DNA of 64,000 nt from Terracoccus sp. 273MFTsu3.1 (lineage in GTDB: Bacteria; Actinomycetota; Actinomycetes; Actinomycetales; Dermatophilaceae), in contig NZ_KB911824.1 in the NCBI RefSeq assembly GCF_000383675.1, positions 186,001 through 250,000 on the forward strand, in the 5' to 3' direction. Under the pieces are notes generated by a model that was not told where the DNA came from, did no database searches, and saw nothing but the letters and a program-made list of their open reading frames with translations. Position numbers and translations under genes: made by a program. Numbering within the stretch: position 1 is the first letter of the stretch; the number at the start of each line of letters is the position of its first letter. Below, in pieces: positions 1 to 17,778 of this stretch.

Positions 1-2
1 AC

Positions 3-1085
3 GTGATCTTCGGCGGCATGAAGGGCACGACCTGGGTGCAGATCATCAAGGCCGTGCTGCTCATCATCGGCGCGGCGATCATGACCTTCTGGGTCCTCGC
101 CAAGTTCGGCCTCAGCCTCTCGACGCTGCTCGGCGACGCGACGACGGCCTCGCAGGACGCCGGCGGCAAGGACCTGCTCCAGCCGGGTCTGCAGTACAAG
201 AACCCCGTCGACTTCATCTCCCTCTCGATGGCGCTCGTGCTGGGCACGGCAGGTCTGCCGCACGTCCTCATGCGCTTCTACACGGTGCCGACCTCGCGTG
301 AGGCCCGTCGGTCCGTCGTGTGGGCCATCTGGCTCATCGGCATCTTCTACATCTTCACGCTCATCCTCGGCTTCGGGGCGGCCGACCTCGTCGGGGCGGC
401 AGCCATCAAGGCGGCACCGGGTGGGGTCAACTCCGCCGCACCGCTGCTCGCATTCGAGCTCGGTGGCGAGATCCTGCTCGGGATCATCTCGGCGGTCGCC
501 TTCGCGACGATCCTCGCGGTCGTCGCCGGCCTGACCATCACGGCGAGCGCGTCCCTGTCGCACGACATCTACAACACGGTCGTCAAGAAGGGGACCGCCA
601 CCCCCGAGGAGGAGGTCAAGGTCGCGCGCATCGCAGCGCTCGTCCTCGGCGCCATCGCCATCATCGGCGGCATCTTCGCCCTCGGCCAGAACATCGCCTT
701 CCTCGTGGCACTGGCCTTCGCCATCGCCGCGAGCGCGAACCTGCCGACGATCCTCTACTCGCTCTTCTGGAAGCGGTTCAACACCAGGGGTGCGCTGTGG
801 AGCATCTACGGCGGCCTCATCAGCGCCATCACGCTGATCATCTTCAGCCCGGTCGTCTCCGGCAAGCCGATCGACCCGCTGACGAAGAAGAGCCCGTCGA
901 TGCTCCAGGGGGTCGACTTCCACTGGTTCCCGCTCGACAACCCGGGCATCATCTCGATCCCGCTCGGCTTCGTCCTCGGCTACATCGGCACCGTCACGAG
1001 CCGTGAGTACAACGCGGCGAAGTACGCCGAGATGGAGGTGCGCTCGCTCACCGGACACGGTGCCGAGACGGCGACGCACCACTGA
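3..1085 (+). CDS. actP: Cation/acetate symporter, SSS family (5' partial)
   Basis: This is the C-terminal part of a sodium:solute symporter of the ActP/MctC type, which imports acetate or related short monocarboxylates together with a cation. The visible 360 residues are almost entirely hydrophobic helices with short loops. They open with a Gly-Gly-Met-Lys-Gly-Thr-Thr segment typical of the middle of ActP, and contain a helix rich in Thr/Ser (LTITASASLSHD) followed by a short charged loop. The frame is already open at base 3 and family members have roughly 500 or more residues, so the N-terminus lies outside the window and the GTG at base 3 is not taken as the real start. A strong hairpin follows the stop. 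Substrate within the SSS family is inferred from overall resemblance. Confidence 0.85.
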   Translation: MIFGGMKGTTWVQIIKAVLLIIGAAIMTFWVLAKFGLSLSTLLGDATTASQDAGGKDLLQPGLQYKNPVDFISLSMALVLGTAGLPHVLMRFYTVPTSREARRSVVWAIWLIGIFYIFTLILGFGAADLVGAAAIKAAPGGVNSAAPLLAFELGGEILLGIISAVAFATILAVVAGLTITASASLSHDIYNTVVKKGTATPEEEVKVARIAALVLGAIAIIGGIFALGQNIAFLVALAFAIAASANLPTILYSLFWKRFNTRGALWSIYGGLISAITLIIFSPVVSGKPIDPLTKKSPSMLQGVDFHWFPLDNPGIISIPLGFVLGYIGTVTSREYNAAKYAEMEVRSLTGHGAETATHH

Positions 1086-1123
1086 GTCGATCCGTCCCCC
1101 TGCCTGCTGGTGGGGGGACGGGC

Positions 1124-1158
1124 AGCGGCCGCGCACGCCAGGGGTGTGCGCGGCCGCT
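1124..1158 (+). terminator. Hairpin terminator after the symporter gene
   Basis: A perfect 13-bp inverted repeat has arms AGCGGCCGCGCAC (1124-1136) and its complement (1146-1158) around a 9-nt loop, 38 bp after the symporter stop. There is no long T-run, which is common for actinobacterial terminators. Confidence 0.7.
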
Positions 1159-1265
1159 CTCGCGCGTCCGAAGGTCGACCCGGTGGACGGGCAACCTTTC
1201 GACCGGGTGGGCCGTCGTACACGTCGGGTGCCGCGTCAGGGTGCGGCCGCAGACAGGAGGGTCCG

Positions 1266-1808
1266 ATGACGACCGACGCAGGACGCGAAGGCTCGACGTA
1301 CGCGTGGCGACCGGGACGGGGGTATGCCGGGGGTGCCGTGACCGGGGTCTGGTTCGCTGCGGTGCTCACCGTCCTCACCGGCGTCGTCGACGTCATCGGG
1401 TCCGGGTGGCGGGCCGGGCTCGTCGCGCTGGTCGCGGCACAGTTCCTCGGCACCCTCCTCGTCGCGGTCCCCGTGTTCACCCTCGTCGGGCGGGTGCTCC
1501 GCGACGCCGGCCGGACCGCTGCCGTCGGAGGGTATGCCGCGGGCGCCCTCGTGGCACGCCTGCTCGTCGCGCCGTTGCTCGGCTCCGCCGCGGGAGTCGA
1601 ACCGTCGAGCGGTCCCCAGACGGCGGGGCTCGCGGCACTGTCGGTCCTCGCCGCCGTCGTCGCGGCGCTCGTCTCGACGCGCGACCGGCTCCCGCGCACG
1701 AGCGGGCGCCTGCGCCACCGCGCGGGCGGGCAGCCGACCGGTGGGGGCGTCCCGGGACCGTCGGCCGCGCCGGCGCCGGCCGGCCGCTACCTCTCGGGCG
1801 GACCGTGA
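1266..1808 (+). CDS. Small integral membrane protein, function unknown
   Basis: A 180-residue protein with about four hydrophobic segments (roughly residues 20-40, 48-75, 85-105 and 118-135) and a Pro/Gly/Ala-rich, positively charged tail. The ATG at 1266 is preceded at a good distance by GGAGG, which fixes the start; in-frame codons further upstream lie in the terminator region. I do not recognise a named family. It stands alone between the symporter terminator and the converging proB gene, so the context gives no function. Alanine/glycine-rich membrane proteins of this kind are common in actinobacteria. Confidence 0.7.
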
Positions 1809-1830
1809 CGGAGCGCCCGGGTGGCCGTCC

Positions 1831-2943
1831 TCAGATGACGACGAGGTCGTCGCGGTGGATGACCTCCCGCTCGTACTCCGGGCCCAGCTCGCGGGCGAGC
1901 TCCCTCGTCGACCGTCCCAGCAGGGACGGGAGCTCGGACGAGCTGTAGTTGACGAGGCCGCGGGCGATCGCGGTCCCGTCGGGGGAGCACACGTCGACGG
2001 GGTCGCCGTCGTGGAAGGTGCCCTCGACGGCCGTGATGCCGGCGGGGAGCAGCGACGTCTTGCGCTGGACCAGCGCCGTGACGGCGCCGTCGTCGACGAT
2101 GAGCCGCCCGCGCGCGGTCGTCGCGTGCTCGAGCCAGAGCCGTCTCGACCGTCCGCGCACCCCGATCGGCAGGAACACCGTGCCGACGTCCTCGCCGGCG
2201 AGCACCTGGGTGACCCGGTCCGCGGCCGTGACCGACGTGACGACGCCGGCGGCGGTCGCGATCCGGGCCGCCTCGATCTTCGTCGTCATGCCACCCGTGC
2301 CCACCTTCGAGCCGCTGCCCCCGATCTCGACGCCGACGAGGTCCTGCGGGCCGCGGACGACCGGGATGCGCCGGGCCCCGGGGCGGCTCGGGGGTCCGTC
2401 GTAGAGGGCGTCGACGTCGGAGAGGAGCACGAGCGCGTCGGCGTCGATGAGATGGGCCACGAGGGCGGCGAGCCGGTCGTTGTCGCCGAAGCGGATCTCG
2501 CTCGTGGCGACGGTGTCGTTCTCGTTGACGATCGGCAGCACGCCGAGGTCGAGCAGCCGCTCGAGCGTGCGTCGCGCGTTCGCGTAGTGGGTGCGCCGCG
2601 TGACGTCGTCGGCGGTGAGCAGGACCTGCCCGACGGTGATGTCGTGTCCGGCGAACGCCTGCGTGTAGCCGGCGAGCAGGGCCCCCTGGCCGACGGAGGC
2701 TGCTGCCTGCTGGGTCGCGAGGTCCCGGGGTCGGGCGGTGAGGCCGAGCGGGTGGATGCCGGCGGCGATGGCACCGGAGCTGACGAGGACGATCTGGGTG
2801 CCGTCGAGGTGCTTGTGCGCCAGGGCGTTGGCCAGAGCCACGAGCCGCCCGTGGTCGATGCCGCCGTCCACCCCGGTCAGCGAGCTGGAGCCGACCTTGA
2901 CGACGAGCCGTCGGGCGGTGCTGATGACGGAGTGGGGCGACAC
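1831..2943 (-). CDS. proB: Glutamate 5-kinase
   Basis: ProB phosphorylates L-glutamate to gamma-glutamyl phosphate with ATP, the first step of proline synthesis. The 370 residues begin with the amino-acid-kinase signature [11 protein letters not shown], contain the VSSGAIAAG loop and a VNENDTV segment, and end with a PUA-like region (GRLIVDDGA...) as in full-length ProB. The GTG start at 2943 follows GAGGT and leaves a normal N-terminus; the longer upstream reading has an uncharacteristic Arg-rich extension. The gene is transcribed away from proA across a 114-bp gap instead of sitting in the usual proB-proA operon. Proline feedback inhibition is a known property of the family and is not visible here. 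Confidence 0.95.
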
Positions 2944-3057
2944 ACCTCGAACTCTAGTGACGGGCCGTGCGACGACGCAGGGCTGTCCGCCGCGGCCGAC
3001 GGTCCAGCCCCCGGAAACGGTCGGTCGCGCGAGTGCGTCACGACCTACGCTGGAGGC

Positions 3058-4341
3058 ATGTCCCAGACGATCGACCCCGCCGTCGTCGAGCACGTGACGG
3101 CCATGGCGGAGCGCGCCCGCACCGCCTCACGACGGCTCGCCCTCATGTCCCGTGCCGAGAAGGACGCGGCCCTGCTGCTGCTCGCCGACGCCGTCGACGC
3201 CGCCGCACCCGCGGTCATCGAGGCCAACGCCGAGGACATCGAGCGCGGTCGAGCCACGGGGATGAACGAGAGCCTGCAGGACCGGCTACGCCTCGACCGG
3301 GCCCGCGTCGCCGCCGTCGCCCAGGCCCTGCGTGACGTCGCTGCCCTGCCCGACCCGGTCGGCGAGATCGTCCGAGGCTCGACCCTCGCCAACGGGCTGC
3401 AGATCCGCCAGGTGCGCGTCCCGATGGGCGTCATCGGGATGATCTACGAGGCACGCCCCAACGTCACCGTCGACGCCGCCGGCCTCGCTCTCAAGTCCGG
3501 CAACGCGGTCCTCCTGCGCGGAGGGTCGGCCGCGGCGAGCAGCAACCACGCCCTCGTCGAGGCGATGCGCGGATCCCTCGCCGACCAGGGTCTCCCGGTC
3601 GATGCCGTGACCCTGCTCGAGGAGGGAGGCCGCGACGCGGCTCGGGCCCTCATGACGGCGCGCGGCCACGTCGACCTCGTCATCCCGCGCGGCGGCGCCG
3701 ACCTCATCGAGACGGTGGTCCGCGAGTCCACGGTCCCCGTCATCGAGACCGGTGTCGGTGTGTGCCACGTCTACGTCGACCGCGGCGCCGACCTCGACAA
3801 GGCCCGGGCCATCACGCTCAACGCCAAGACCCACCGCCCGAGCGTCTGCAACGCCGCCGAGTCGCTCCTCGTCCACCGAGACGTCGCCGCCGACTTCCTG
3901 CCCAAGGCGCTCACCGACCTCGCCGGGGCCGGCGTGCGACTGCACGTGGCACCCGACGTCACGCCGTACGCCGAGGCGGCCGGGGCGGCATACGCCCTCG
4001 CGAGCGAGGCCGACTTCGGGACCGAGTGGCACGGCCTGGAGATGAGCGTGGCCGTCGTCGACGACCTCGACGAGGCGATGGACCGGATCCGTCGATTCGG
4101 CACCGGGCACACCGAGGCGATCGTCACGGAGGACCGGGCGGCGGCCCGGCGCTTCACCGCGGAGGTCGACGCGGCGGCGGTCATGGTCAACGCGAGCACC
4201 CGTTTCACCGACGGCGGGGAGTTCGGATTCGGCGCCGAGATCGGCATCTCGACGCAGAAGCTGCACGCACGCGGGCCGATGGCCCTGCCCGAGCTGACGA
4301 CGACGAAGTGGATCGTCGAGGGCGACGGCCACACGCGCTGA
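3058..4341 (+). CDS. proA: Gamma-glutamyl phosphate reductase
   Basis: ProA reduces gamma-glutamyl phosphate with NADPH to glutamate-5-semialdehyde, the second step of proline synthesis. The 427-residue protein belongs to the aldehyde-dehydrogenase superfamily. The catalytic cysteine lies in [15 protein letters not shown], with an earlier [14 protein letters not shown] segment and a [14 protein letters not shown] nucleotide-binding region. The ATG at 3058 is preceded by a TACGCT -10-like element at 3046-3051, only 6 nt away with GGAGG inside the gap, so the mRNA is probably leaderless or nearly so. It is divergent from proB. The following methyltransferase starts 46 bp downstream. Confidence 0.95.
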
Positions 4342-4387
4342 CGGGTGCCGGCGCGGCCGGCGACGCCGGGTGGCATGATGTCGCACC

Positions 4388-5083
4388 ATGGAAGGCACCG
4401 AGGTCCGCAAGCTCGCTGAGCTGGAGGACGACCACTGGTGGTACCGCGAGCGGCGTCACCTCCTGGCCAAGGCCATCTCGGGGCTGGTGCCCGGACGCGC
4501 CCTCGACATCGGCGCCGCGGGCGGGGGCAACACCCGTGTCCTGCGCGAGCACGGCTGGGACGCCGTCGCGCTCGAGTACGGCTCGGACGGCGCGGAGGTG
4601 GCGCACGGTCGCGGGCTCGCGACGCTGCGCGGCGACGCGACCCGGCTGCCCGTCGCGGACGACTCGCTCGACCTCGTCATGGCCTTCGACCTGCTCGAGC
4701 ACCTCGACGACGACGACGCCGCGGTGGCCGAGGTGCACCGCGTGCTCAAGCCGACCGGCACCTACCTCGTGGCCGTTCCGGCCGACCCGAGGCTGTGGTC
4801 CGAGCACGACGAGGCCGTCGACCACGTGCGCCGCTACACGCGCGAGGGCCTGCTCGACCTGCTCGAGCGCGGTGGCTTCGAGGTCACCGACGTGCGGTCG
4901 TGGAACGTGCTGCTGCGTCCGGTCGTGGCGATGCGCCGCCGGACGAGCTCGGGCTCGGACCTCGAGAACCTCCACCCGGTCGTCAACTTCGGGCTGCGCA
5001 CGATCATCACCGCCGAGCGCTATCTGCCCGTCGGCGGCCTGCCCGGCGTCAGCCTGCTCGTGCGGGCTCAGCCGCGCAGCTGA
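4388..5083 (+). CDS. Class I SAM-dependent methyltransferase
   Basis: A 231-residue methyltransferase of the Methyltransf_11/UbiE fold. The SAM-binding glycine loop is ALDIGAAGGGNTRVL near residue 38, followed by the acidic LEYG strand end and the LDLVMAFDLLEHLDDD motif IV region, then a HRVLKPTGTYLVAVP post-motif. The substrate cannot be told from sequence. Its 3' end overlaps the end of the converging glycosyltransferase gene by 16 bp (5068-5083). The pairing with a GtrB/DPM1-like glycosyltransferase suggests a cell-envelope or lipid-linked glycan role, but that is inference only. Confidence 0.85.
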   Translation: MEGTEVRKLAELEDDHWWYRERRHLLAKAISGLVPGRALDIGAAGGGNTRVLREHGWDAVALEYGSDGAEVAHGRGLATLRGDATRLPVADDSLDLVMAFDLLEHLDDDDAAVAEVHRVLKPTGTYLVAVPADPRLWSEHDEAVDHVRRYTREGLLDLLERGGFEVTDVRSWNVLLRPVVAMRRRTSSGSDLENLHPVVNFGLRTIITAERYLPVGGLPGVSLLVRAQPRS

Positions 5084-6186
5084 GTGCGCTCGGGCTCGGG
5101 CTTGGGCTCGGGTGCCGGCTGGGCCGCGGGGGCGGCAGTCGGGTCGAGCAGCGTCACGGTGGTGTCGGTCTCCGACTCGTCCGACGTCGTGAGGATGTGC
5201 TCCTCGCTCGGCTGGGCCGGCAGGGGCGTGTCGGTCGGACCGTGGGCGCCGGTGTCGGCCGTCATCGAGTCGTAGGCGATGAAGTAGGTCGGGCGGCCCT
5301 GCATGTGGCCGTACATCCGGCCGATGTACTCGCCGAGGATGCCGACGCAGACGAGCTGGACGGCGCCGACGCCTGCGACGATGGCGACGGTCGAGGTCCA
5401 GCCGGCGACGGTGTGGCCCTGCGACCGGGAGATCAGGGTGTAGAGGACGAGCAGCACGGCGAGGACGGCACCGCCGAAGCCGGCGAACGTCGCGAGCCGC
5501 AGCGGCGCCGTCGAGAAGCCGGTCAGCGAGTCGAGCGAGAGCTTGATCATCTTGAGCAGCGGGTACTTCGAGTCCCCGGCCGCGCGCTCCTCGCGCTTGT
5601 ACTCGACCGTGTCGGACGGGAAGTTGAGGGCCGGCACGATGAAGCGCAGGACGCGGTTGTGCTCGGGGAGGCTGTTGATCGCGTCGACGGTGGCACGCGA
5701 CATGAGGCGGTAGTCGCCGGCGTCTGCGTGGGCCGAGGTCTGCGACATGAGACCGATGAGCTTGTAGAACGCCTGGGCCGAGGCCCGCTTGAACCACGTG
5801 TCGGTCGAGCGGTCGTTGCGCACCCCGTAGACGACGTCGACGCCGTCGTCCTTCGCGGCCGCGAGCATCTGCGGGATGATCTCGGGCGGGTCCTGCAGGT
5901 CGGCGTCGATCGTGACGACGTAGTCGCCGAGGGCGCTGACGAGGCCGGCCGAGATCGCGGCCTGGTGCCCGGCGTTGGCGCGCAGGCGCACGACGCGCAG
6001 CTGGGACCACTCGCGGTGGTAGCGCTGGAGCAGCGCGGCCGTCAGGTCCTTGCTGCCGTCGTCGACGGCGACGACCTCGTAGGTGGTGCCCATGCCGTCG
6101 AGGAGCGGTCGGAGCCGCTCGACGAGGAGGGGGAGCACCTCCTCCTCGTTGTACATCGGGATGACCACGGACAACTCGGGAACCAT
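5068..6186 (-). CDS. Family 2 glycosyltransferase with C-terminal membrane anchor
   Basis: A 372-residue GT2 enzyme of the GtrB/DPM1-like group, which transfers a sugar from a nucleotide donor to polyprenyl phosphate on the inner membrane face. The N-terminal domain has SVVIPMYNEEEVLP, VDDGSKD and DADLQDPPE motifs. Two strong membrane helices (about residues 232-256 and 268-292) follow, then a GRPTYFIAY segment. The tail is a low-complexity Pro/Glu/Lys-Pro stretch. The ATG at 6186 is preceded by TACCCT and a 7-nt gap, so a leaderless transcript is likely. Transcription converges on and slightly overlaps the methyltransferase. The exact sugar is unknown. Confidence 0.88.
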   Translation of the reverse strand: MVPELSVVIPMYNEEEVLPLLVERLRPLLDGMGTTYEVVAVDDGSKDLTAALLQRYHREWSQLRVVRLRANAGHQAAISAGLVSALGDYVVTIDADLQDPPEIIPQMLAAAKDDGVDVVYGVRNDRSTDTWFKRASAQAFYKLIGLMSQTSAHADAGDYRLMSRATVDAINSLPEHNRVLRFIVPALNFPSDTVEYKREERAAGDSKYPLLKMIKLSLDSLTGFSTAPLRLATFAGFGGAVLAVLLVLYTLISRSQGHTVAGWTSTVAIVAGVGAVQLVCVGILGEYIGRMYGHMQGRPTYFIAYDSMTADTGAHGPTDTPLPAQPSEEHILTTSDESETDTTVTLLDPTAAPAAQPAPEPKPEPERTQLRG

Positions 6187-6305
6187 GGGTTCTAGGGTAC
6201 GGCCGCGGATGGGCTGTGCCTGTCACCTCGCTGTGCGCGTGCTGTACCCGCACGTCCCCTGCCCGTCCCCTGCACGTCCGCCCCCTCGCCGGTAGCGTGC
6301 CGGGC

Positions 6306-6914
6306 GTGACCTCTGCCGCCGCCGACCGTCCGTCCCGACGAGGTATGCCGCCGGGTGGCCTCGAGCCCGGCACCCCGGTCGCCGGGCGCTTCACGAAGTG
6401 GGGCGGTGGCCGCCACTGGGAGTGGGACGGTCGGTATCTCGGGTCCGACGAGCACGGTCACTGGTGGTACGCGCCGGTGGGCACCCGCTGCGTGCGTCCC
6501 GGTGTCGAGTTCGTCGAGTCGAGCGGCTGGGTGTCCCTCGTGCCGCACGAGGGGGCATTCGTCGTGGGCTTCTACCCGGCCCACCGCGAGATCAGCGTCT
6601 ACGTCGACATGACCACCGAACCGGTCTGGCAGCGCCGGGAGGGCGCCGACGACGGACCGGAGTGGGAGGTGACGATGGTGGACCTCGACCTCGACGTCGT
6701 GCTGACCCGCGACGGTCACCTCTACGTCGACGACGAGGACGAGTTCGCGCAGCACCAGGTCGAGCTCGACTACCCGGAGGAGGTCGTCGCCCTCGCCGAA
6801 CGGTGGCGCGACCGCGTCCACACGGCCGTCGCGGCCGGAGACGAGCCGTTCGCGACCGTGGGCCACGCGTGGCTGCAGCGCGCGGAGTCGGGGGAGGGGC
6901 GGGTCGGTGACTGA
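6306..6914 (+). CDS. DUF402 domain protein
   Basis: A 202-residue protein of the DUF402/FomD-like family. The diagnostic stretch is near the end of the beta-rich domain: VTMVDLDLDVVLTRDG, then LYVDDEDEF, where conserved Asp/Glu residues are thought to bind metal. Characterised relatives hydrolyse nucleotide-linked diesters or phosphates; the substrate here is unknown. The GTG at 6306 is chosen because TAGCGT lies at 6293-6298 with a 7-nt gap, matching the leaderless layout of neighbouring genes. A longer reading upstream would run through the divergent promoter. The helical end (EEVVALAERWRDRVHTAVAAG) is typical of the family. Confidence 0.8.
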   Translation: MTSAAADRPSRRGMPPGGLEPGTPVAGRFTKWGGGRHWEWDGRYLGSDEHGHWWYAPVGTRCVRPGVEFVESSGWVSLVPHEGAFVVGFYPAHREISVYVDMTTEPVWQRREGADDGPEWEVTMVDLDLDVVLTRDGHLYVDDEDEFAQHQVELDYPEEVVALAERWRDRVHTAVAAGDEPFATVGHAWLQRAESGEGRVGD

Positions 6915-6988
6915 GCGAGCCGACCGGCACACGCCCTCGGTGGGCACGCGCTGCGTCGGCCGGGGCCTGCGGGCGCTAGGCTGGGCGC

Positions 6989-7207
6989 ATGTCTGATCGT
7001 GTCCTCGCACTCGTCACCGAGGGGGAGGAAGCCGCCCGCGAGCTTCCCATGCCGGTGATCGCCTACTTCTTCATCACCTTCGCGCTGTTCCTCGTGGCGC
7101 TCGCCGTCACGTGGAGCTTCCGCAACACGGCCTACAAGGTGCAGTCCCCGCGCCGGGGTGAGGGCACGCACGGCAGCACGAGCGGATCCGACGGGGCACA
7201 CCACTGA
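6989..7207 (+). CDS. Small single-pass membrane protein upstream of nadD
   Basis: A 72-residue protein with one central membrane helix (about residues 24-45, [20 protein letters not shown]) and a Gly/Ser/His-rich charged tail. The ATG at 6989 has TAGGCT at 6977-6982 and a 6-nt gap, another leaderless-type promoter. It is followed 2 bp later by nadD, so it is the first gene of the nadD-rsfS-phosphatase operon. Small membrane proteins at this place are common in actinobacteria; no function is assigned. Confidence 0.75.
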
Positions 7208-7209
7208 CC

Positions 7210-7851
7210 ATGCGCCTCGGCGTCATGGGCGGGACGTTCGACCCGATCCACCACGGCCACCTCGTGGCCGCCAGTGAGGTCCAGTCGCGCTTCGACCTCG
7301 ACGAGGTCGTCTTCGTCCCCACGGGCCAGCCGTGGCAGAAGGCGGACCGTCACGTCTCGCCCGCCGAGGACCGCTACCTCATGACCGTCATCGCGACGGC
7401 CTCCAACCCGCGCTTCACCGTCAGCAGGGTCGACATCGACCGACCCGGGCCGACGTTCACGATCGACACCCTGCGCGACATCAGGACCGAGCGTCCCGAC
7501 GACGAGCTGTTCTTCATCACCGGCGCCGACGCCCTGGCCGAGATCCTGTCCTGGAAGGACGCCGAGCACCTCTTCGAGCTGGCCCACTTCATCGGAGTCA
7601 CCCGTCCCGGCCACGAGCTGTCCGACACGGGCCTGCCCGAGGACCGGGTCACGTTGCAGGAGGTGCCGGCCATGGCGATCAGCTCCACCGACTGCCGGGC
7701 ACGCGTCGCCGCGGGCGCCCCGGTCTGGTACCTCGTGCCCGACGGGGTCGTCCAGTACATCAACAAGTACCGCCTGTACGCCGCCGACCTGGCGAGCGCA
7801 GGCACCGTGCCGAGACACCTGTCGCCGGCACCACCCCGAGGAGATTCGTGA
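7210..7851 (+). CDS. nadD: Nicotinate-nucleotide adenylyltransferase
   Basis: NadD joins ATP and nicotinate mononucleotide to give deamido-NAD in NAD synthesis. The 213-residue protein starts with the nucleotidyltransferase signature [12 protein letters not shown], has [16 protein letters not shown] in the middle, and ends its catalytic domain with the ISSTDCR motif, close to the usual ISST-x-IR. The tail adds about 20 loosely conserved residues. The start at 7210 is 2 bp after the small membrane-protein gene, and the stop overlaps the rsfS start in a GTGA, indicating translational coupling. Confidence 0.95.
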
Positions 7852-8261
7852 CCGCAGCAGACCACTCGATCCAGCTCGCGAAGGTGGCCGCGCTGGCCTC
7901 CGAGGAGAAGCTCGCCGAGAAGGTGATGGCCATCGACGTGAGCGAGCAGATGCCGCTCACCGACGTGTTCGTCATCGCCTCCGCACCGTCCGAGCGGCAG
8001 GTCGGCGCCATCGTCGACGAGGTCGAGGACCGGCTGCGTGAGCTGGGCAGCAAGCCGATCCGCCGTGAGGGCGAGCGCGAGGGGCGCTGGGTCCTCATCG
8101 ACTTCGGCGACATCATCGTCCACGTCCAGCACGAGGAGGAGCGCGAGTACTACGCGCTCGAGCGCCTCTGGAAGGACTGCCCCGAGATCGACCTCGCGAC
8201 CGTGTCGGCCCCGGCCCGTCCGGGTGCCGACGACGAGGTCGACGAGGTCGACGAGGCGTGA
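7848..8261 (+). CDS. rsfS: Ribosomal silencing factor RsfS
   Basis: RsfS (Iojap/RsfA family) binds ribosomal protein uL14 and blocks joining of the subunits when nutrients are scarce. The 137-residue product carries the family core: [21 protein letters not shown], the [22 protein letters not shown] strand region and [16 protein letters not shown]. The C-terminus has an acidic Asp/Glu-Val repeat. The GTG start at 7848 overlaps the nadD stop by 4 bp, and its stop in turn overlaps the following phosphatase start, giving a tightly coupled three-gene series also seen in mycobacteria. Confidence 0.95.
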
Positions 8262-9006: not shown

Positions 9007-9079
9007 GGGGCTGTGGCGCAGCTGGTAGCGCACCTGCATGGCATGCAGGGGGTCAGGGGTTCGAGTCCCCTCAGCTCCA
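9007..9079 (+). tRNA. tRNA-Ala (anticodon GGC)
   Basis: A 73-nt cloverleaf reading alanine GCC/GCU codons. The acceptor stem pairs GGGGCTG (9007-9013) with CAGCTCC (9072-9078) with one G-T pair. The anticodon stem CCTGC/GCAGG holds the loop ATGGCAT, giving GGC at positions 34-36. The T arm carries GGTTCGAGTCCCC. The discriminator is A and the CCA end is not encoded. A terminator follows 10 bp later. The caspase/CHAT operon begins just beyond, on the opposite strand. Confidence 0.97.
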
Positions 9080-9089
9080 CCGAAGGACG

Positions 9090-9134: not shown

Positions 9135-11078
9135 TCAGACGCGTGGGCGGGTCGTGACGACGAAGACCGAGTCGGTGCGCCAGTCGGCGACCGCCGCTGA
9201 CGCGGGGCGCGGCCCCAGGCGCCGCGTCCGGGTGCCGCCCAGCACCCGCTCGAGGTTGGAGCGCAGGGCCGGTGGCTCGTCGGCGCTCCTCGTCGTCCCG
9301 GTGGCCGGCACGGCGCTGACGTCGAGCTCCTCCTGCTCGAGCGACCTCGGGTCGAACTCGAGCGTGCTCGTCACGACCATGAGCTGGTCGCGCAGTGACA
9401 CGGTGCCCGCCTCCCACAGCGCGTCGTCGACCTGGCCGACGAGGTCGACGCTCGTCGTCTCGCCGGGCCCGAGCGCCACGGACCCGGCCGGGAACGCGTC
9501 GGTGAAGATGCCGTAGGTCTCGGTGAGGTCGAGGAGCGCCGCCCAGAGGGGGGTGGAGGTGGTGTTCGCGAGACGGACGGTGAAGCGGGGGGCGTCCGTG
9601 CCGGCATACGCGATCGGCAGGGTGCCGCCCGCCCCGACCGGCCCGGCGCCCGCGTCCACCTCGACGCGGACGGCGCCGTCGGGCAGGCGGGTGGCGGGGT
9701 TGGTGAGGGCGGAGAGGCGCAGCCAGCGTGCCACGCGCTCGAGGGCGAGGATGGTGCGCTCCTCGCGGGCCTCGCCCGCGACGACGGGCACGAGGGGGCG
9801 CGTGACGCCGGGACGGGTGATGACGAAGCCCTCGTGGGTGGCCTCGACGAGGAGGTCCGCGGTGCCGTCACCGTCCCCTTCTCCCTCGACGAGGTCGACG
9901 AGCGTCTCGTCCGCGGCGTCGGCGGCCGCGCGGAGCGCAGCCGTCCCCGCGGCGTCGCCGACGACCCCGACGCGCAGCGGCGCGAGTGGGATCGACGTGA
10001 CGACGGCACGGTAGACGTACGCCTCGTCGAGCTCGGGCGTCAGGCGGACGAGGCTGCGGTCGGGCAGGACCCTCGTGACGAGCGCGGTGGCGAGCGGCGA
10101 CCCGGACGTCTCGCCGGTCAGGGGGTAGACGGCCAGCTCGGTCGTGTCGTCACCGATGGGCTCCGGCACGCCGTGGACGGCGCCCGAGTCGATGGACCAG
10201 CCGTCGGGCAGCCGGCTCAGGGTGAGCGGCCTCGGGGTGGCCGGGATCGCGCCGCCGAGGAAGGGTCGGTCGAGCTCGGTCGCGTCGGCCGTCTCGACCT
10301 GGGGGTGCTGGTCGCTGACGCGGTTCGTCACGTCGGCGGTCACCATCCGCAGGACGTCGCGGTAGGACGGGCGCCCGTCGCTGCCGAGCAGGGCGGCCTC
10401 GAGCGCCGCCGACAGGGCGCCGCGCTGGCGGCCGAGCACGGTGACCTCCTTCGCCTTCTCGGACGACCGGCAGGCCGCGAGCAGGACGTGACGGCCTGCC
10501 GGTGTCCAGCGCGCAGCACCCCGGGTGGGTGCACCGGCCGTCGCGTCGCCGAGCCCCACGAACGTCGACGCGGGTCGGGGACGCGGGTCCGGGGGCGCGA
10601 GCCGCACCACCTCGTCGGCGTCCCGGGTGCCGTCGCCCGAGTGGCAGCAGTCGAGCACGACGAGCGTGTGGCAGCCCGTCGCCGAGATCGAGTCGAGCAG
10701 AGCGGCCAGCTCCTTGTCGGTTAAGTCCCAGCTGCCGGGCGAGCGGCTGTCGACGCACACGAGGGTCTCGTTGCGGTGGTCGGGCTCGATGGACCAGAGC
10801 TCCTCGGGAGTCGTCTGCTGCGAACCGTGCCCGCTGTAGTAGAAGAGCGCGACGTCCTGGGCGCTCGCGCGACCGAGGTGCTCGCTGAGCCGGCTGGTGA
10901 CGGCTGCCCGGGTGGCTTGGCCGTCGGTGAGCACGACGAGGTCGAGGGCGTCCGTGCCGACCCGGTCGCGCAGGACGTCCGCGAAGCCGGTGACGTCGTT
11001 GACGCAGCCCGACAGGGGCGGGATCGGCGCCGGGTAGGCGTCGATCCCGACGAGGAGGGCGAGGAGGCGTCCGGCCAT
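9135..11078 (-). CDS. Caspase-family (C14) protease, partner of the CHAT protein
   Basis: A 647-residue protein with an N-terminal caspase-like domain. It opens with LALLVGIDAYPAPIPPLSGCVND. The catalytic His84 is in YYSGHGSQ and the catalytic Cys145 is in VLDCCHSGDG. Arg/Asp-rich loops and an AALSAALEAAL segment follow. From about residue 300 a second, mostly beta-strand region follows, ending with a segment on vascular-type LTETYGIF and PGETTSVDLVG that is common after bacterial caspase domains. It has no signal peptide or membrane helix, so it is expected in the cytosol. The ATG at 11078 lies 1 bp after the CHAT gene's stop, so the two are coupled. Leu119 is encoded by TTA, a very rare codon here. 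Substrate is unknown; cell death or defence is inference. Confidence 0.88.
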   Translation of the reverse strand: MAGRLLALLVGIDAYPAPIPPLSGCVNDVTGFADVLRDRVGTDALDLVVLTDGQATRAAVTSRLSEHLGRASAQDVALFYYSGHGSQQTTPEELWSIEPDHRNETLVCVDSRSPGSWDLTDKELAALLDSISATGCHTLVVLDCCHSGDGTRDADEVVRLAPPDPRPRPASTFVGLGDATAGAPTRGAARWTPAGRHVLLAACRSSEKAKEVTVLGRQRGALSAALEAALLGSDGRPSYRDVLRMVTADVTNRVSDQHPQVETADATELDRPFLGGAIPATPRPLTLSRLPDGWSIDSGAVHGVPEPIGDDTTELAVYPLTGETSGSPLATALVTRVLPDRSLVRLTPELDEAYVYRAVVTSIPLAPLRVGVVGDAAGTAALRAAADAADETLVDLVEGEGDGDGTADLLVEATHEGFVITRPGVTRPLVPVVAGEAREERTILALERVARWLRLSALTNPATRLPDGAVRVEVDAGAGPVGAGGTLPIAYAGTDAPRFTVRLANTTSTPLWAALLDLTETYGIFTDAFPAGSVALGPGETTSVDLVGQVDDALWEAGTVSLRDQLMVVTSTLEFDPRSLEQEELDVSAVPATGTTRSADEPPALRSNLERVLGGTRTRRLGPRPASAAVADWRTDSVFVVTTRPRV

Positions 11079-11079
11079 C

Positions 11080-13416
11080 TCAGGAGGCCGCGTCGGCGAG
11101 GGTGATCGTCTGCCAGCCGTGCGGGAAGCCCTGCGTCGCGGCAGTGCGGGAGGCATTCGTGCTCTTCATGGTGCGCAGCCTCCACGTGGCCGGGGCGCTC
11201 GTCGCGTCGCTGAGGTTGACGTTCATCGAGAAGACGGAGCCACGGACCGGAGCCTTCCTGAGCTGGAGGGACGACCACGGCACGCGGGCCTCGAGGTCGT
11301 AGCCGGTCAGCGTGTCGGCACGCCCCACGGTGATCTCGGGGTGGCGCGTACCGGTGGTGAAGGTGCCGCGGCCGGCCGGGTTGATCGAGGCGACGCCGGA
11401 CGTCGGGGCGTCACGGGACAGGCCCACCATGACGTGGACGTCCTGGCCGCGTCGGGTCGTGGCCGCGGGGTCGAGGTTCCGGGCGTCCGGACCGAACTCG
11501 AAGGAGAAGCCGTCGCCGTTGAACCAGGCACCGGGGGTGGCGAGGTTGACGCTGCGGATGTCCGGGTCGACGACGTGCACGCGCAGGTAGAGCGCGCTGC
11601 TGTCCCAGACGACCTGCCAGTCGCCGCCGAACTCCGGCTGGGGCGTGCCCACCTGGGCGATGACGTGGGGGATCGGTGCCGTGGGCACGCCGTCCCAGTC
11701 GGCGAAGTCACCGTCGATGGCCGGAGTCGTCGTGGCGCACCCGGCGACGAACGTCGTCGTCGGAGCGCTCGCGGCCGCGGGGGCCGGCCCGCACGCGCTC
11801 GTGACGTCGGCCGTGGCCCCCTTGAACCACTTCGGGACCTGGGTCGCGCCGAGCCAGAAGAGCCCGAAGAGGACGACGAGTCCGACGAGACTGCGGACGA
11901 AGCCGTTGCCCTTGCGGCGCGGGTGCGGGTCCGGCGGTGGGGGAGCGTCCTCACCGCCACGGTCCGGCTGTGGGTCCGGCTGCGGCTCGGGGCGTGTCAG
12001 CGGCTCGGTGTCCTGCTGGATCTCCTGCCCGGTGTTCGGCTGGGTGTCCGGTTGGGTGTCCAGCAGTGGAAGCGGCTGGGTCGGCGTCACCGGCTCGCGG
12101 CGTGGCCGCGGCGTCGGCCCCTCGTCGGCGGGCGCGGCCTCCGGCCGGACCCGCTCGAGCAGCTGAGTGACGTCCTGGTAGTCGGGATGCTCGGCGGCGA
12201 TCTGCTCGAGCAGCGGCAGTGCCGTCGCCGGGGCGCGGGCGAGCAGCGCGCCCTTCGCGGCGTCGTAGAGGGACTCGAGCCGGCTCTCGGGCCGCTCGGT
12301 CGCGGCGGTGGCGCTCGTCGTGAACGAGAAGGGCTGGTCGGCGCCCGACCGCAGCAGCACCGCGGTGCCCCACTCCGAGGCCTCGTCGGAGACGGCCATC
12401 GCCTTGCGCACCTCGCAGATCGCGGCGTCGATGCCCAGTCCGCGGGTGAGGAAGTAGTAGAACTCGTGGCTGAAGACGAGCGCGGCACGGTCGGAGATCT
12501 CGGTCTGCATCGCGACGACCGCCGGCAGCCCCTGGCGCACGAGGGCCTGGCCGACGCCGGAGAACGCGTCGCGTCCCGACGTCCGCGCACCCTCGCACGC
12601 GTTGAGGACGGCGAGCTGCATGGTCCGGGCGTCGTGGAGCAGCGTCCCGAGCCGCGCGCCGGAGACCCGGTGGGCCGTGCCGTCCTCGCGCTCGAGGACG
12701 AGGACGCCCTCCTGGGCCTGTTGGTCGAAGCCGCCGTGGCCGATGAAGTGGAAGACGTGGAAGTCGTCGAGCAGGGCGCGCTGGAGGCCGGTGAGGGTCG
12801 CGTCCTCGAGGACCGTGACCGTGAGCCGGCCGCTCGCCACGAGGTCGTTGGTCGTCGCCATGAGCAGCTGCCGCTCGCGGTCCACGGCGAGCTCCGGCAT
12901 GTCGCTCGGGCTCGAGATCATGACGAGGACGCGCAGGGGCGCATCGACGTGGACCACCGGTGGGCGCTCGAGCGAGTCGAGCAGGCGCACGATCGGCGTC
13001 TCCTGCGAGAGCGTGAGGAAGCGACCGAGCCTCGAGTCGTAGAGGTACTCCCACGGCACCGGGTCGAGGTCCGGCACGGCGTCGAGCCGCAGTCGTAGCC
13101 GCAGGTCCCGGCCCTGGCTGGTGGCGGTCGTCAGGCTTTCGCGGAAGGCCCGCCCGACATCGCCGGACAGCAGTGCGTCACCGAGCCGGCGGCCGTACTC
13201 CTTGACGTCGACGACGCGCGCCTCGGCCGGCACGAGGCGTCTCGAGGACACCCGCGGTGGTCCCACCGCGATCATGAACTGGGCGAGGTCCGTGGCGGCG
13301 AACGGCAGGGTGAAGGGGGCCGACGCCTCGCCCGCGGGCGAGGCGAGGACGTGAGCGGCATACCCCTGGCCCTCACGGGTGACGGCGACGTCGAAGTCGA
13401 GATAGTCACGGCTCAT
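11080..13416 (-). CDS. Membrane-anchored CHAT-domain protease with exterior CBM9-like domain
   Basis: A 778-residue fusion protein. Residues about 100-370 form a CHAT (caspase-HetF) protease domain: VPWEYLYD, catalytic His227 in HFIGHGGF, and Cys274 in LNACEGART. A short helical region (about 370-430) follows, then a linker rich in Gln, Pro, Thr and Asp (about 430-500), a single membrane helix at about 506-528 preceded by RRK, and an exported C-terminal domain (559-778). That domain begins PAIDGDFADWDG and contains WNGDGFSFEFG-type strands like family 9 carbohydrate-binding/DOMON-like domains. The Arg/Lys-rich flank predicts the protease inside and the CBM9-like sensor outside. The ATG at 13416 has AGAGGA at good spacing. 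It is the first gene of the two-gene operon with the caspase. Confidence 0.85.
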   Translation of the reverse strand: MSRDYLDFDVAVTREGQGYAAHVLASPAGEASAPFTLPFAATDLAQFMIAVGPPRVSSRRLVPAEARVVDVKEYGRRLGDALLSGDVGRAFRESLTTATSQGRDLRLRLRLDAVPDLDPVPWEYLYDSRLGRFLTLSQETPIVRLLDSLERPPVVHVDAPLRVLVMISSPSDMPELAVDRERQLLMATTNDLVASGRLTVTVLEDATLTGLQRALLDDFHVFHFIGHGGFDQQAQEGVLVLEREDGTAHRVSGARLGTLLHDARTMQLAVLNACEGARTSGRDAFSGVGQALVRQGLPAVVAMQTEISDRAALVFSHEFYYFLTRGLGIDAAICEVRKAMAVSDEASEWGTAVLLRSGADQPFSFTTSATAATERPESRLESLYDAAKGALLARAPATALPLLEQIAAEHPDYQDVTQLLERVRPEAAPADEGPTPRPRREPVTPTQPLPLLDTQPDTQPNTGQEIQQDTEPLTRPEPQPDPQPDRGGEDAPPPPDPHPRRKGNGFVRSLVGLVVLFGLFWLGATQVPKWFKGATADVTSACGPAPAAASAPTTTFVAGCATTTPAIDGDFADWDGVPTAPIPHVIAQVGTPQPEFGGDWQVVWDSSALYLRVHVVDPDIRSVNLATPGAWFNGDGFSFEFGPDARNLDPAATTRRGQDVHVMVGLSRDAPTSGVASINPAGRGTFTTGTRHPEITVGRADTLTGYDLEARVPWSSLQLRKAPVRGSVFSMNVNLSDATSAPATWRLRTMKSTNASRTAATQGFPHGWQTITLADAAS

Positions 13417-13595: not shown

Positions 13596-13910
13596 GTGCA
13601 CTGGCTCGTCCTCATCCTGTCCGGCGCGCTGGAGGCCGTCTGGGCCACCGCGCTCGCCGCGTCCGGCGGTTTCCGCCGTCCGCGGCCGACCGCCCTCTTC
13701 GCCGTCTCCCTCGTGCTCAGCATGGTCGGCCTCGCGTGGGCCATGACCTCCCTGCCCACCGGCACGGCGTATGCCGTGTGGGTCGGGATCGGCGCCGTCG
13801 GCACCGTCCTGCTCGCGGTCGCCCGCGGCGAGGAGCGCCTCGGCGGCGCCCGGTCCGCGCTGCTGGTCGTGCTCGTCGCGTGCGTCGCCGGCCTCAAGGC
13901 GGTGGCGTGA
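13596..13910 (+). CDS. SMR-family guanidinium exporter subunit (Gdx-like), first gene
   Basis: A 104-residue, four-helix small multidrug resistance protein. The first helix has the Gdx-type pattern Gly-x-x-Glu-x-x-Trp (GALEAVWATALAAS), where the glutamate is the proton/guanidinium site and the tryptophan distinguishes guanidinium exporters from EmrE-like pumps. The helix-three segment GTAYAVWVGIGAVGT is also typical. The GTG at 13596 lies 13 bp after the guanidine-III aptamer. The stop TGA overlaps the ATG of the second SMR gene by one base. Two tandem SMR genes suggest a heterodimer. Guanidinium specificity is inferred from the riboswitch and motif. Confidence 0.88.
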   Translation: MHWLVLILSGALEAVWATALAASGGFRRPRPTALFAVSLVLSMVGLAWAMTSLPTGTAYAVWVGIGAVGTVLLAVARGEERLGGARSALLVVLVACVAGLKAVA

Positions 13911-14269
13911 TGCCGTGGGTCGTCCTGCTCGTCAGCGCCGTGCTCGAGGCGGTGTGGGCCTCGGCGCTCGCCGCGTCCGAGGGACTCTCACGCCCCGTCC
14001 CGGCCCTCGTCTTCCTCGTGGCGGGCGCGCTCAGCATGGTCGGGCTCGCGCACGCCGTGCGCACCATCCCCATCGGGACGGCGTATGCCGTGTGGACGGG
14101 TCTCGGGGCCGCGCTCACCGTGACGTGGGCGATGACGACGGGCGGTGAGGCGTTCTCCGCCGTCAAGGTCGTCCTGCTCGCCGGGATCGTCGCTGCCGTC
14201 GTCGGACTCAAGCTCGTCGGGCACGAGCCTGCCGAGACCCCGGGCACGGATGACGCTCCCGCGGGCTGA
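13910..14269 (+). CDS. SMR-family guanidinium exporter subunit (Gdx-like), second gene
   Basis: A 119-residue paralogue of the preceding gene with the same first-helix pattern (VLEAVWASALAASEG) and a GTAYAVWTGLGAALT third helix, plus a short acidic Pro/Asp-rich tail. Its ATG overlaps the previous stop in TGATG, so translation is coupled and both genes are under the guanidine riboswitch. Paired SMR subunits usually insert with opposite orientation and work as a heterodimer; charge bias was not worked out in detail here. The 119 bp after the stop hold no recognisable gene. Confidence 0.88.
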   Translation: MPWVVLLVSAVLEAVWASALAASEGLSRPVPALVFLVAGALSMVGLAHAVRTIPIGTAYAVWTGLGAALTVTWAMTTGGEAFSAVKVVLLAGIVAAVVGLKLVGHEPAETPGTDDAPAG

Positions 14270-16806: not shown

Positions 16807-17778
16807 TCAGGGTCGCCGGGACACCTCGGGCGCGGCACCGCGGCGCCTCGCGTCGGTGCCGGGGTTCCGCGGGTCGGTGCCCGTTGGCCCGGCGCTCGTT
16901 CGCTCCGGGCCCGTTCGCTCCAGGCCCGTTCGCTTCGGGCCCGTTCGCTCGGGGCTCGCGGGCTCGGCGCGACCGGCCAGCGCGATGCAGCCGCCAAGTG
17001 TGGCGACGAAGGCCAGCGCGGCCGCCGGACCATGCCCGGGCGCGACCCGGTCGCCGAGCAGGAGCACCCCGATGACGGCAGGGACGACCGTCTCGGTGGC
17101 GAAGGTCAGGGCCGCGACGGTCGTCACCCGGCCGCGGGCCAGGGCCAGGCCGTAGGCGACGGTCGCCAGCACGGCGTGGGCGACGAGGGCCCAGGCGACG
17201 CCGTCCGTGGCGAGGCCCCACACGGGTGACGGCACCTCGAGCAGACGGGCCGCCACGCCGACGCCCCCGAAGCCGAGGCCCGCGCCGACGCTGAGGACGA
17301 CGGCTCCGCGCGGGCGGTCGTGGTCGACGGTCCCGACGACGAGCAGCAGGGCGACGACCGCCGCCGCAGCGAGGAGCCACCACGTCGCCCCCGGCCGCGG
17401 GTGCCCGGCCGGTCCGGTCGACGCGGTCAGGGCGAGGCCGGTGAGCCCGGCGACGATGACGAGCAGCGCGACGACCTCCGCCCTCCCCAGACGGACGCGG
17501 AGCACGACGACCGAGAGCACCGCGGTGACGGCGACCGACGAGGCGACCGCGGACTCGACGAGGAAGAGCGGCAGCGTGCGCAAGGCCGCCACGGATGCGA
17601 GGAAACCGACCCCGTCGAGGGCGAGGCCCACGGCATACGGCCAGCCGGTCCGCACCCGGTCCGGCAGGGAGGTGCCGGGCGGCAGCGCGGAGACACGGCG
17701 TACGCCCACGGCCTGGAGCACGGTGGCCGCGCCGTATGCGAGCGCTGCGAGGAGCGCACCGAGCAGTCCGAGCGTCAC
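16807..17778 (-). CDS. DMT/EamA-like membrane transporter
   Basis: A 323-residue protein with nine to ten hydrophobic helices arranged as two EamA-like halves, a drug/metabolite-transporter architecture. It begins LLGALLAALAYGAATVLQA. Substrate is unknown. The last 50 or so residues are not membrane and consist of a 5-residue repeat (ERTGP/KRTGL type), encoded by 15-bp tandem DNA repeats, followed by an Arg/Pro-rich end. Start is GTG at 17778. It converges with the 2TM gene, with 7 bp between the stops. Confidence 0.78.
   Translation of the reverse strand: MTLGLLGALLAALAYGAATVLQAVGVRRVSALPPGTSLPDRVRTGWPYAVGLALDGVGFLASVAALRTLPLFLVESAVASSVAVTAVLSVVVLRVRLGRAEVVALLVIVAGLTGLALTASTGPAGHPRPGATWWLLAAAAVVALLLVVGTVDHDRPRGAVVLSVGAGLGFGGVGVAARLLEVPSPVWGLATDGVAWALVAHAVLATVAYGLALARGRVTTVAALTFATETVVPAVIGVLLLGDRVAPGHGPAAALAFVATLGGCIALAGRAEPASPERTGPKRTGLERTGPERTSAGPTGTDPRNPGTDARRRGAAPEVSRRP
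16898..16957 (-). repeat. 15-bp tandem repeat within the EamA gene tail
   Basis: Four adjacent copies of GTTCGCTCCGGGCCC-type units (16898, 16913, 16928 and 16943) differ by one or two bases each. On the coding strand they specify repeated Glu-Arg-Thr-Gly-Pro-like pentapeptides, a likely site of copy-number change. Confidence 0.9.

Follow-up and report, generated by a model that had tools for sequence, protein, structure and literature searches.

A conserved actinobacterial gene pair of a predicted membrane CHAT protease and a caspase, with an apparently exchanged outer domain

A soil actinobacterium encodes, side by side, a CHAT protease with a predicted membrane anchor and a caspase of the metacaspase type. 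Judged from sequence comparisons, the two genes appear to be a genuine module of two proteases, conserved in relatives, which varies the CHAT-caspase theme in the form of a receptor with an exchanged sensor domain. The pairing itself is an already known theme; this pair stands out by its receptor form and its swapped sensor domain.

A CHAT protease gene directly precedes a caspase gene

The stretch of DNA analyzed (the window, 64 kb) is part of contig 5 in the 4.94-Mb genome of the organism. Searched with CHAT and caspase profiles at an E-value of 1e-4, it contains one CHAT and one caspase, and these adjoin each other on the same strand, with the caspase downstream and a single base (11079) between the CHAT stop codon and the caspase ATG. 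CHAT was found in none of the 14 4-kb tiles of the window outside the locus (1-8000, 16001-64000), nor in any of the 40 outer 4-kb ends of the control loci described below; the adjacency of CHAT and caspase exceeds chance. The CHAT gene comprises the following features:

11080-13416, minus strand: CHAT protease gene, 778 aa, an open frame with coding composition
12379-13200, minus strand: CHAT domain, aa 73-346, Pfam CHAT (PF12770), 3.5e-30
12736-12738 and 12595-12597, minus strand: catalytic codons of His227 and Cys274
11845-11901, minus strand: transmembrane helix predicted by hydropathy, aa 506-524, with RRK right before it
11185-11718, minus strand: CBM9-like ectodomain, aa 567-744, Pfam CBM9_1, 4.8e-9

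From N- to C-terminus, the protein consists of an N-terminal domain, the CHAT domain, a short helical region, a Pro-rich linker that is its least conserved part, one transmembrane helix and the CBM9-like outer domain. The PF12770 score (105.9 bits against a cut-off of 24) assigns it to the CHAT peptidases, and His227 and Cys274 are unchanged in 28/28 aligned CHAT rows. Mean pLDDT is modest for the structure models of both proteins (70.5 for CHAT, 62.7 for the caspase). By Foldseek, the CHAT model matches SAVED-CHAT 8tl0 (3e-9; profile match 0.0015) and the ectodomain matches the CBM9 structure 7nwo (1e-10); the model also places a helix at residues 506-542. Among the 22 paired CHAT rows, 18 exceed the hydropathy threshold for the transmembrane helix and four (L069, L070, L075 and L077) lie below it; the charge differs only weakly between the two sides of the helix. 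Ahead of the CBM9-like domain, Cys542 and Cys560 are both present in 20/22 rows and both missing in the other two, consistent with a possible disulfide pair. From the one hydrophobic helix and this cysteine pair at the beginning of the outer part we infer that the N-terminus lies inside and the CBM9-like domain outside the cell.

The second gene is laid out as follows:

9135-11078, minus strand: caspase gene, 647 aa, an open frame with coding composition; metacaspase-type C14 domain followed by a beta-rich, Ig-like C-terminal region
10278-11063, minus strand: Peptidase_C14 domain (PF00656), aa 6-267, Pfam 5.4e-19
10827-10829 and 10644-10646, minus strand: catalytic codons of His84 and Cys145
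10497-10640, minus strand: low-confidence loop after the catalytic Cys, aa 147-194, variable in length, with R159, D164, R166, R168 and P169 invariant in 21 rows
9138-10253, minus strand: C-terminal region, aa 276-647, common to relatives in Nostoc, Rhizobium, Deinococcus and a Bacteroidetes bin

With 69.2 bits against a PF00656 cut-off of 21.4, the protein belongs to the C14 caspases and metacaspases; it aligns with metacaspases through the motifs GCxND, SGHG and DCCHSG, the last of which includes the catalytic Cys. His84, Cys145 and the adjacent Cys144 are unchanged in 21/21 aligned caspase rows, and hydropathy gave no hydrophobic helix anywhere in the protein. The C-terminal region has no Pfam match up to E 10, while Foldseek returns Ig/MSP-like matches of modest quality. 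The first-pass annotation, which had called a membrane-anchored CHAT protease (His227, Cys274) and a soluble caspase (His84, Cys145) one base apart on the same strand, is borne out by these domain, helix and residue data.

The loop at residues 147-194 is a candidate processing site. A Nostoc relative of the caspase without a nearby CHAT retains most of the loop motif as judged by eye, so the motif may instead serve autoprocessing rather than cleavage by CHAT. Seemingly, residues of the caspase lie at the same places as the acidic S1 pocket of trypanosome MCA2, and our guess of Arg/Lys specificity is based on this.

The pair is conserved at one chromosomal place

The pair is flanked by a tRNA gene on the caspase side and by a riboswitch with its genes on the CHAT side, all outside the module:

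9007-9081, plus strand: tRNA-Ala(GGC), convergent, an old neighbour 53 bp from the caspase stop codon
13521-13586, plus strand: guanidine-III riboswitch (50.9 bits), preceding an SMR gene pair divergent from the CHAT gene
13596-13910 and 13907-14269, plus strand: two tandem SMR genes directly behind the riboswitch

The tandem SMR genes presumably encode a guanidinium exporter pair. Further along, a 15-bp tandem repeat (5.1 copies, 16879-16955) lies within the C-terminal part of a transporter-like gene. Ten neighbouring genes of the window, including both flankers of the pair, were scanned with Pfam; two of the ten had no match at all, and among the ten neither a defence-type family nor a gasdermin was found.

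A full-length caspase ortholog occurs in 19 of 149 genomes of the same family, drawn evenly from a larger group, and these 19 genomes span seven genera. In every one of them (19/19) a CHAT-CBM9 gene adjoins the ortholog, and within the genus the pair is found in 9/9 genomes at one chromosomal place. In 18/19 loci no more than 14 bp lie between the CHAT stop and the caspase start, L104 with an overlap by 4 being among them, and in L074 the distance is 165 bp; starts were chosen mechanically, and in L076 the nearer (second) of two tandem CHAT genes was used. In a second family (f14), the arrangement is head-to-head in all four fetched loci, which come from one genus and have a different genomic context. 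Retention of the pair in each of the 19 genomes and its recurrence in another, head-to-head arrangement argue for a joint function, and by inference support the coupling and the membrane-sensor architecture that the first-pass annotation had proposed.

The two genes do occur apart in relatives, a finding that the same annotation had counted against coupling. CHAT matches (up to 1e-20) were found in 24 genomes of the family, five of which have no caspase ortholog (G015, G073, G078, G094 and G102). In all five, a second CHAT gene adjoins the CHAT-CBM9 gene. Three loci (L085, L087 and L088) show CHAT-CBM9 head-to-head with the second CHAT gene and then another gene, which is a DUF7379 hydrolase in L085 and has similar counterparts, compared by eye, in the other two.

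The tRNA had been taken as a common insertion site. Of 18 fetched loci, 16 have a histidine-phosphatase gene and tRNA-Ala on the side of the caspase, and two are cut short by contig ends. The distance between tRNA and caspase is 54-98 bp in 8/16 loci, and in the other 8/16 it is about 1.0-6.9 kb with other genes between. In other genera these intervening genes are, as far as we can tell by eye, metabolic (debranching enzyme, thiolase, transporter). A further copy of the tRNA 3' end was looked for in the window and not found, and the GC content of the locus (0.73-0.75) is inside the window's own range. We reject an insertion at the tRNA on the basis of the missing repeat, the ordinary GC content and the preserved flanks, and the flanks kept at one chromosomal place point to vertical descent, with the tRNA as an old neighbour rather than a recent insertion site. 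By these comparisons, the pair appears to be vertically inherited, core to the genus and outside any evident mobile element.

CHAT-caspase coupling is general in these genomes and recurs in other lineages

Other caspases of the same genomes, lacking the C-terminal region, served as control. A CHAT frame adjoins 20/20 of them and, with three added, 22/23; the sole one without a CHAT neighbour begins at a contig end. These 23 controls have E-values up to 1e-20 and come from the best eight or fewer of 3-37 candidates per genome, weaker caspases falling outside the list. The idea that pairing is specific to the window locus is thereby overturned, and CHAT-caspase coupling is general in these genomes. 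At least two further sets lie in the genome from which the window comes: one pairs a 275-aa caspase with a CHAT protein of 1028 aa (L144, G000:C1), and the other has a 1155-aa DUF7362-DUF7379-DUF7363-CHAT fusion, that is a hydrolase-CHAT, followed by two tandem caspases (L151, G000:C2). CHAT-CHAT-caspase sets occur in two genomes of the window's family and in one of a third family (f19); their caspase frames are about 1,140 aa long, and the only one scanned (L082) is fused to a DUF7379 alpha/beta-hydrolase. This wider pattern points to CHAT-caspase coupling as a basic element of the biology of caspases here rather than a CRISPR peculiarity.

Within the family of the window caspase itself, CHAT lies within 6 kb in 30/34 loci, not counting the window; many of the 34 are close relatives and they are not independent. 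The 30 CHAT-bearing loci comprise 23 with CHAT first, five divergent, one with the caspase first and one convergent. The remaining four have no CHAT in the fetched stretch, so that the caspase can exist alone. A TPR-CHAT frame in a Bacteroidetes bin (L109) runs up to the start of the caspase, which is 34% identical.

The C-terminal region of the caspase was found in 9/396 genomes of the order and 1/396 of the phylum, and the outer part of the CHAT protein alone has matches in 5/198 genomes of the order. That the caspase C-terminal region is confined to a few actinobacteria is overturned by relatives, 35-39% identical over 80% or more of the caspase, on six plasmids of Nostoc, Rhizobium, Deinococcus and Anabaena. 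The CHAT protein matches ten plasmid records, none of them at 80% coverage. CHAT lies near the plasmid relatives of the caspase in Rhizobium, Anabaena and Embleya (on the Embleya plasmid the caspase is matched over only 56% of the query and CHAT in pieces), and none was found in the fetched stretches of three Nostoc loci and one Deinococcus locus. Three of seven examined caspase-bearing plasmids were typed as conjugative, one of them, from Rhizobium, with CHAT nearby.

Two of the plasmid loci carry larger fusions. On a conjugative plasmid of Rhizobium ruizarguesonis (L131), a caspase-hydrolase fusion is divergent from a CHAT gene near transfer genes, and the locus also encodes a 767-aa protein lacking a Pfam match. 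On a Nostoc plasmid (L135, 3491-12664, plus strand), a 3057-aa protein combines caspase, DUF7379 hydrolase, nSTAND1 and a periplasmic-binding-protein domain.

The outer domain has apparently been exchanged between lineages

Compared with L069, the window pair is 91% identical in the CHAT part (aa 1-425) and 85% in the caspase, yet only 40% from aa 500 on; the corresponding dN values are 0.06, 0.10 and 0.64 for the outer part. L071, whose caspase is no closer than that of L069 (80%), still has 74% identity in the outer part. The nine rows of the genus group together in the CHAT tree with modest support (69/73) and in the caspase tree with high support (100/98), whereas the outer-domain tree groups L069 and L070 with L072, L079 and L078b (100/99). 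The latter group is rejected by the CHAT data (p 1e-69) and, for its four testable rows, by the caspase data (p 3e-6). Conversely, the outer-domain data reject the nine-row genus group (p 0.0005) as well as the pair of L078 and L079 (p 6e-5), which has 100/100 support in the CHAT and caspase trees. The tested groups were chosen after the first trees, so that the p values are not blind, and the long branch L076b was excluded. The conflict between the trees indicates that the outer domain was exchanged between lineages, with CHAT and caspase inherited vertically. One genome (L078) has two CHAT-CBM9 genes flanking the caspase and is a plausible source for such an exchange. No sign of positive selection was seen, dN being below dS in every region compared.

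CHAT paralogs carry other tails. A genome of the same genus encodes a CHAT-TIR fusion with predicted C-terminal membrane helices (L092, 7185-9512, minus strand), and a paralog in L095 ends in a beta-propeller.

Proposed mechanism and rival explanations

We give about an even chance to a reading in which the pair is a two-gene receptor-protease module: prompted by a signal from outside, the CHAT receptor would activate the caspase, and the cell would cease to grow or die. The order of action, the cleavage site, the specificity and the outcome would be as follows. The CHAT protein would sit in the membrane with its protease inside and its carbohydrate-binding-like CBM9 domain outside. On sensing a ligand or a change of the cell surface, the outer domain could bring the CHAT domains together or reorient them, and active CHAT may then cleave or otherwise switch on the co-produced soluble metacaspase, the cut probably falling in the flexible loop behind the catalytic Cys. 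The caspase would in turn cut cell proteins after Arg or Lys, leading to a growth stop or cell death. In favour of this reading are the conserved coupling, the invariant catalytic residues, the 8tl0 match, the metacaspase motifs, the exchange of the outer domain and the varied orientations; counting against it are the five CHAT genomes without caspase, the four caspase loci without CHAT, the modest pLDDT and the four of 22 rows below the transmembrane threshold.

The fact that the pair is core to the genus, vertically inherited and outside an evident mobile element also suits a housekeeping role and to that extent weighs against a receptor for death. The membrane CHAT could sense the wall or septum and tune division or envelope growth by limited proteolysis, much as one might expect of a HetF-like protein, with the caspase as a partner rather than a killer. 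HetF, which is tied to division, has the same layout of CHAT, one transmembrane helix and a C-terminal domain (PMC8406250), and the NCBIfam HetF model matches at 9.9e-19; the score of 67.1 bits, however, falls far short of the equivalog cut-off of 1200, the outer part is CBM9 and not TPR, and the exchange of the outer domain together with the CHAT-TIR paralog looks more like a conflict system. We regard a housekeeping role as unlikely. The same paralog speaks for an anti-phage abortive module, in which infection would be detected by the outer or the inner part and answered by the two proteases with death of the host cell, as do the PADLOC matches (SAVED_CHAT, 4.3e-13, on the CHAT part at model positions 125-280 of 498; caspase, 4.7e-34) and the partly conjugative plasmids bearing caspase relatives. 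Yet the locus is fixed and vertical, the ten scanned neighbours include no defence-type family, an outside sensor is unusual for phage sensing, and the Cas10 family PF22335 has 0 matches in the window's genome, although its control set also matches E. coli and is not clean. Among 50,697 phage records there is one weak caspase match, which weighs neither way. On balance we see little probability in the anti-phage reading.

A reversed order, in which the caspase acts upstream, activating CHAT or freeing it from the membrane at the Pro-rich linker so that CHAT is the executioner, would make use of the long and poorly conserved linker ahead of the helix, and caspases of the family do occur without CHAT. 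The precedent of SAVED-CHAT/PCaspase nevertheless reportedly runs from CHAT to caspase, and the sensor-like domain sits on CHAT, which makes this order very improbable to us.

Returning to the receptor-protease module, we tentatively put forward, as a doubtful further step, that it is a bacterial counterpart of death receptors, in which lineages swap the extracellular sensor of a transmembrane initiator protease but retain its protease part and the executioner caspase. If so, one conserved caspase cascade would respond to different outside signals in different cells or strains; a neighbour's glycan, a predator, a phage particle and the cell's own wall are conceivable triggers. Should the receptor-protease module itself be right, a soil actinobacterium would possess a short proteolytic route leading from the membrane to a caspase. 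The neighbouring gene would supply a candidate protease that acts upstream and bears an outside sensor, which would open the activation of bacterial caspases to direct testing.

Comparison with known systems

The first-pass annotation knew of no precedent for the pairing. This needs correction, as CHAT-caspase pairs are common in these genomes and a SAVED-CHAT/PCaspase cascade is published: in the type III-B CRISPR system of Haliangium, SAVED-CHAT reportedly cleaves and activates a caspase, PCaspase (Steens 2024, cited in PMC11417357). The window resembles that system in that a CHAT protease and a caspase are coded together and in the fit of its CHAT model to 8tl0; it differs in the membrane anchor and the CBM9 outer domain, and no SAVED domain was found among Pfam matches to E 10. 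Among the literature matches listed, with subscription papers mostly outside their scope, there was no description of a membrane CHAT-CBM9/caspase pair, and in the main text of a survey of caspase operons in prokaryotes from 2012 no word starts with CHAT.

In EACC1-caspase systems, a 5' membrane gene is likewise followed by a 3' caspase gene, and the membrane part is proposed to sense and to activate the caspase (Kaur 2020, PMC7159879). The 5' gene of the window, however, encodes CHAT-TM-CBM9, itself a protease and not EACC1, and the window caspase scores 56.2 bits with the EACC1-type caspase model, below its cut-off of 140. The same source describes VMAP ternary systems coupling a caspase to an alpha/beta-hydrolase (PMC7159879), which is reminiscent of the DUF7379 hydrolase fusions in the family of the window caspase, while no hydrolase is among the ten scanned neighbours of the window pair. 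A lectin-tailed CHAT-TIR protein of Thiohalocapsa, described as the target of a diversity-generating retroelement (PMC10907252), shares with the window protein the combination of a CHAT protease and a variable sensor part of carbohydrate-binding type; in the window family, by contrast, the variation would arise by domain exchange between lineages. HetF is a membrane CHAT protein of the same layout, with TPR in place of CBM9, and an interaction partner of FtsI (PMC8406250). The module thus appears to be neither SAVED-CHAT, EACC1-caspase nor HetF; its design resembles the first two and its layout is like the third.
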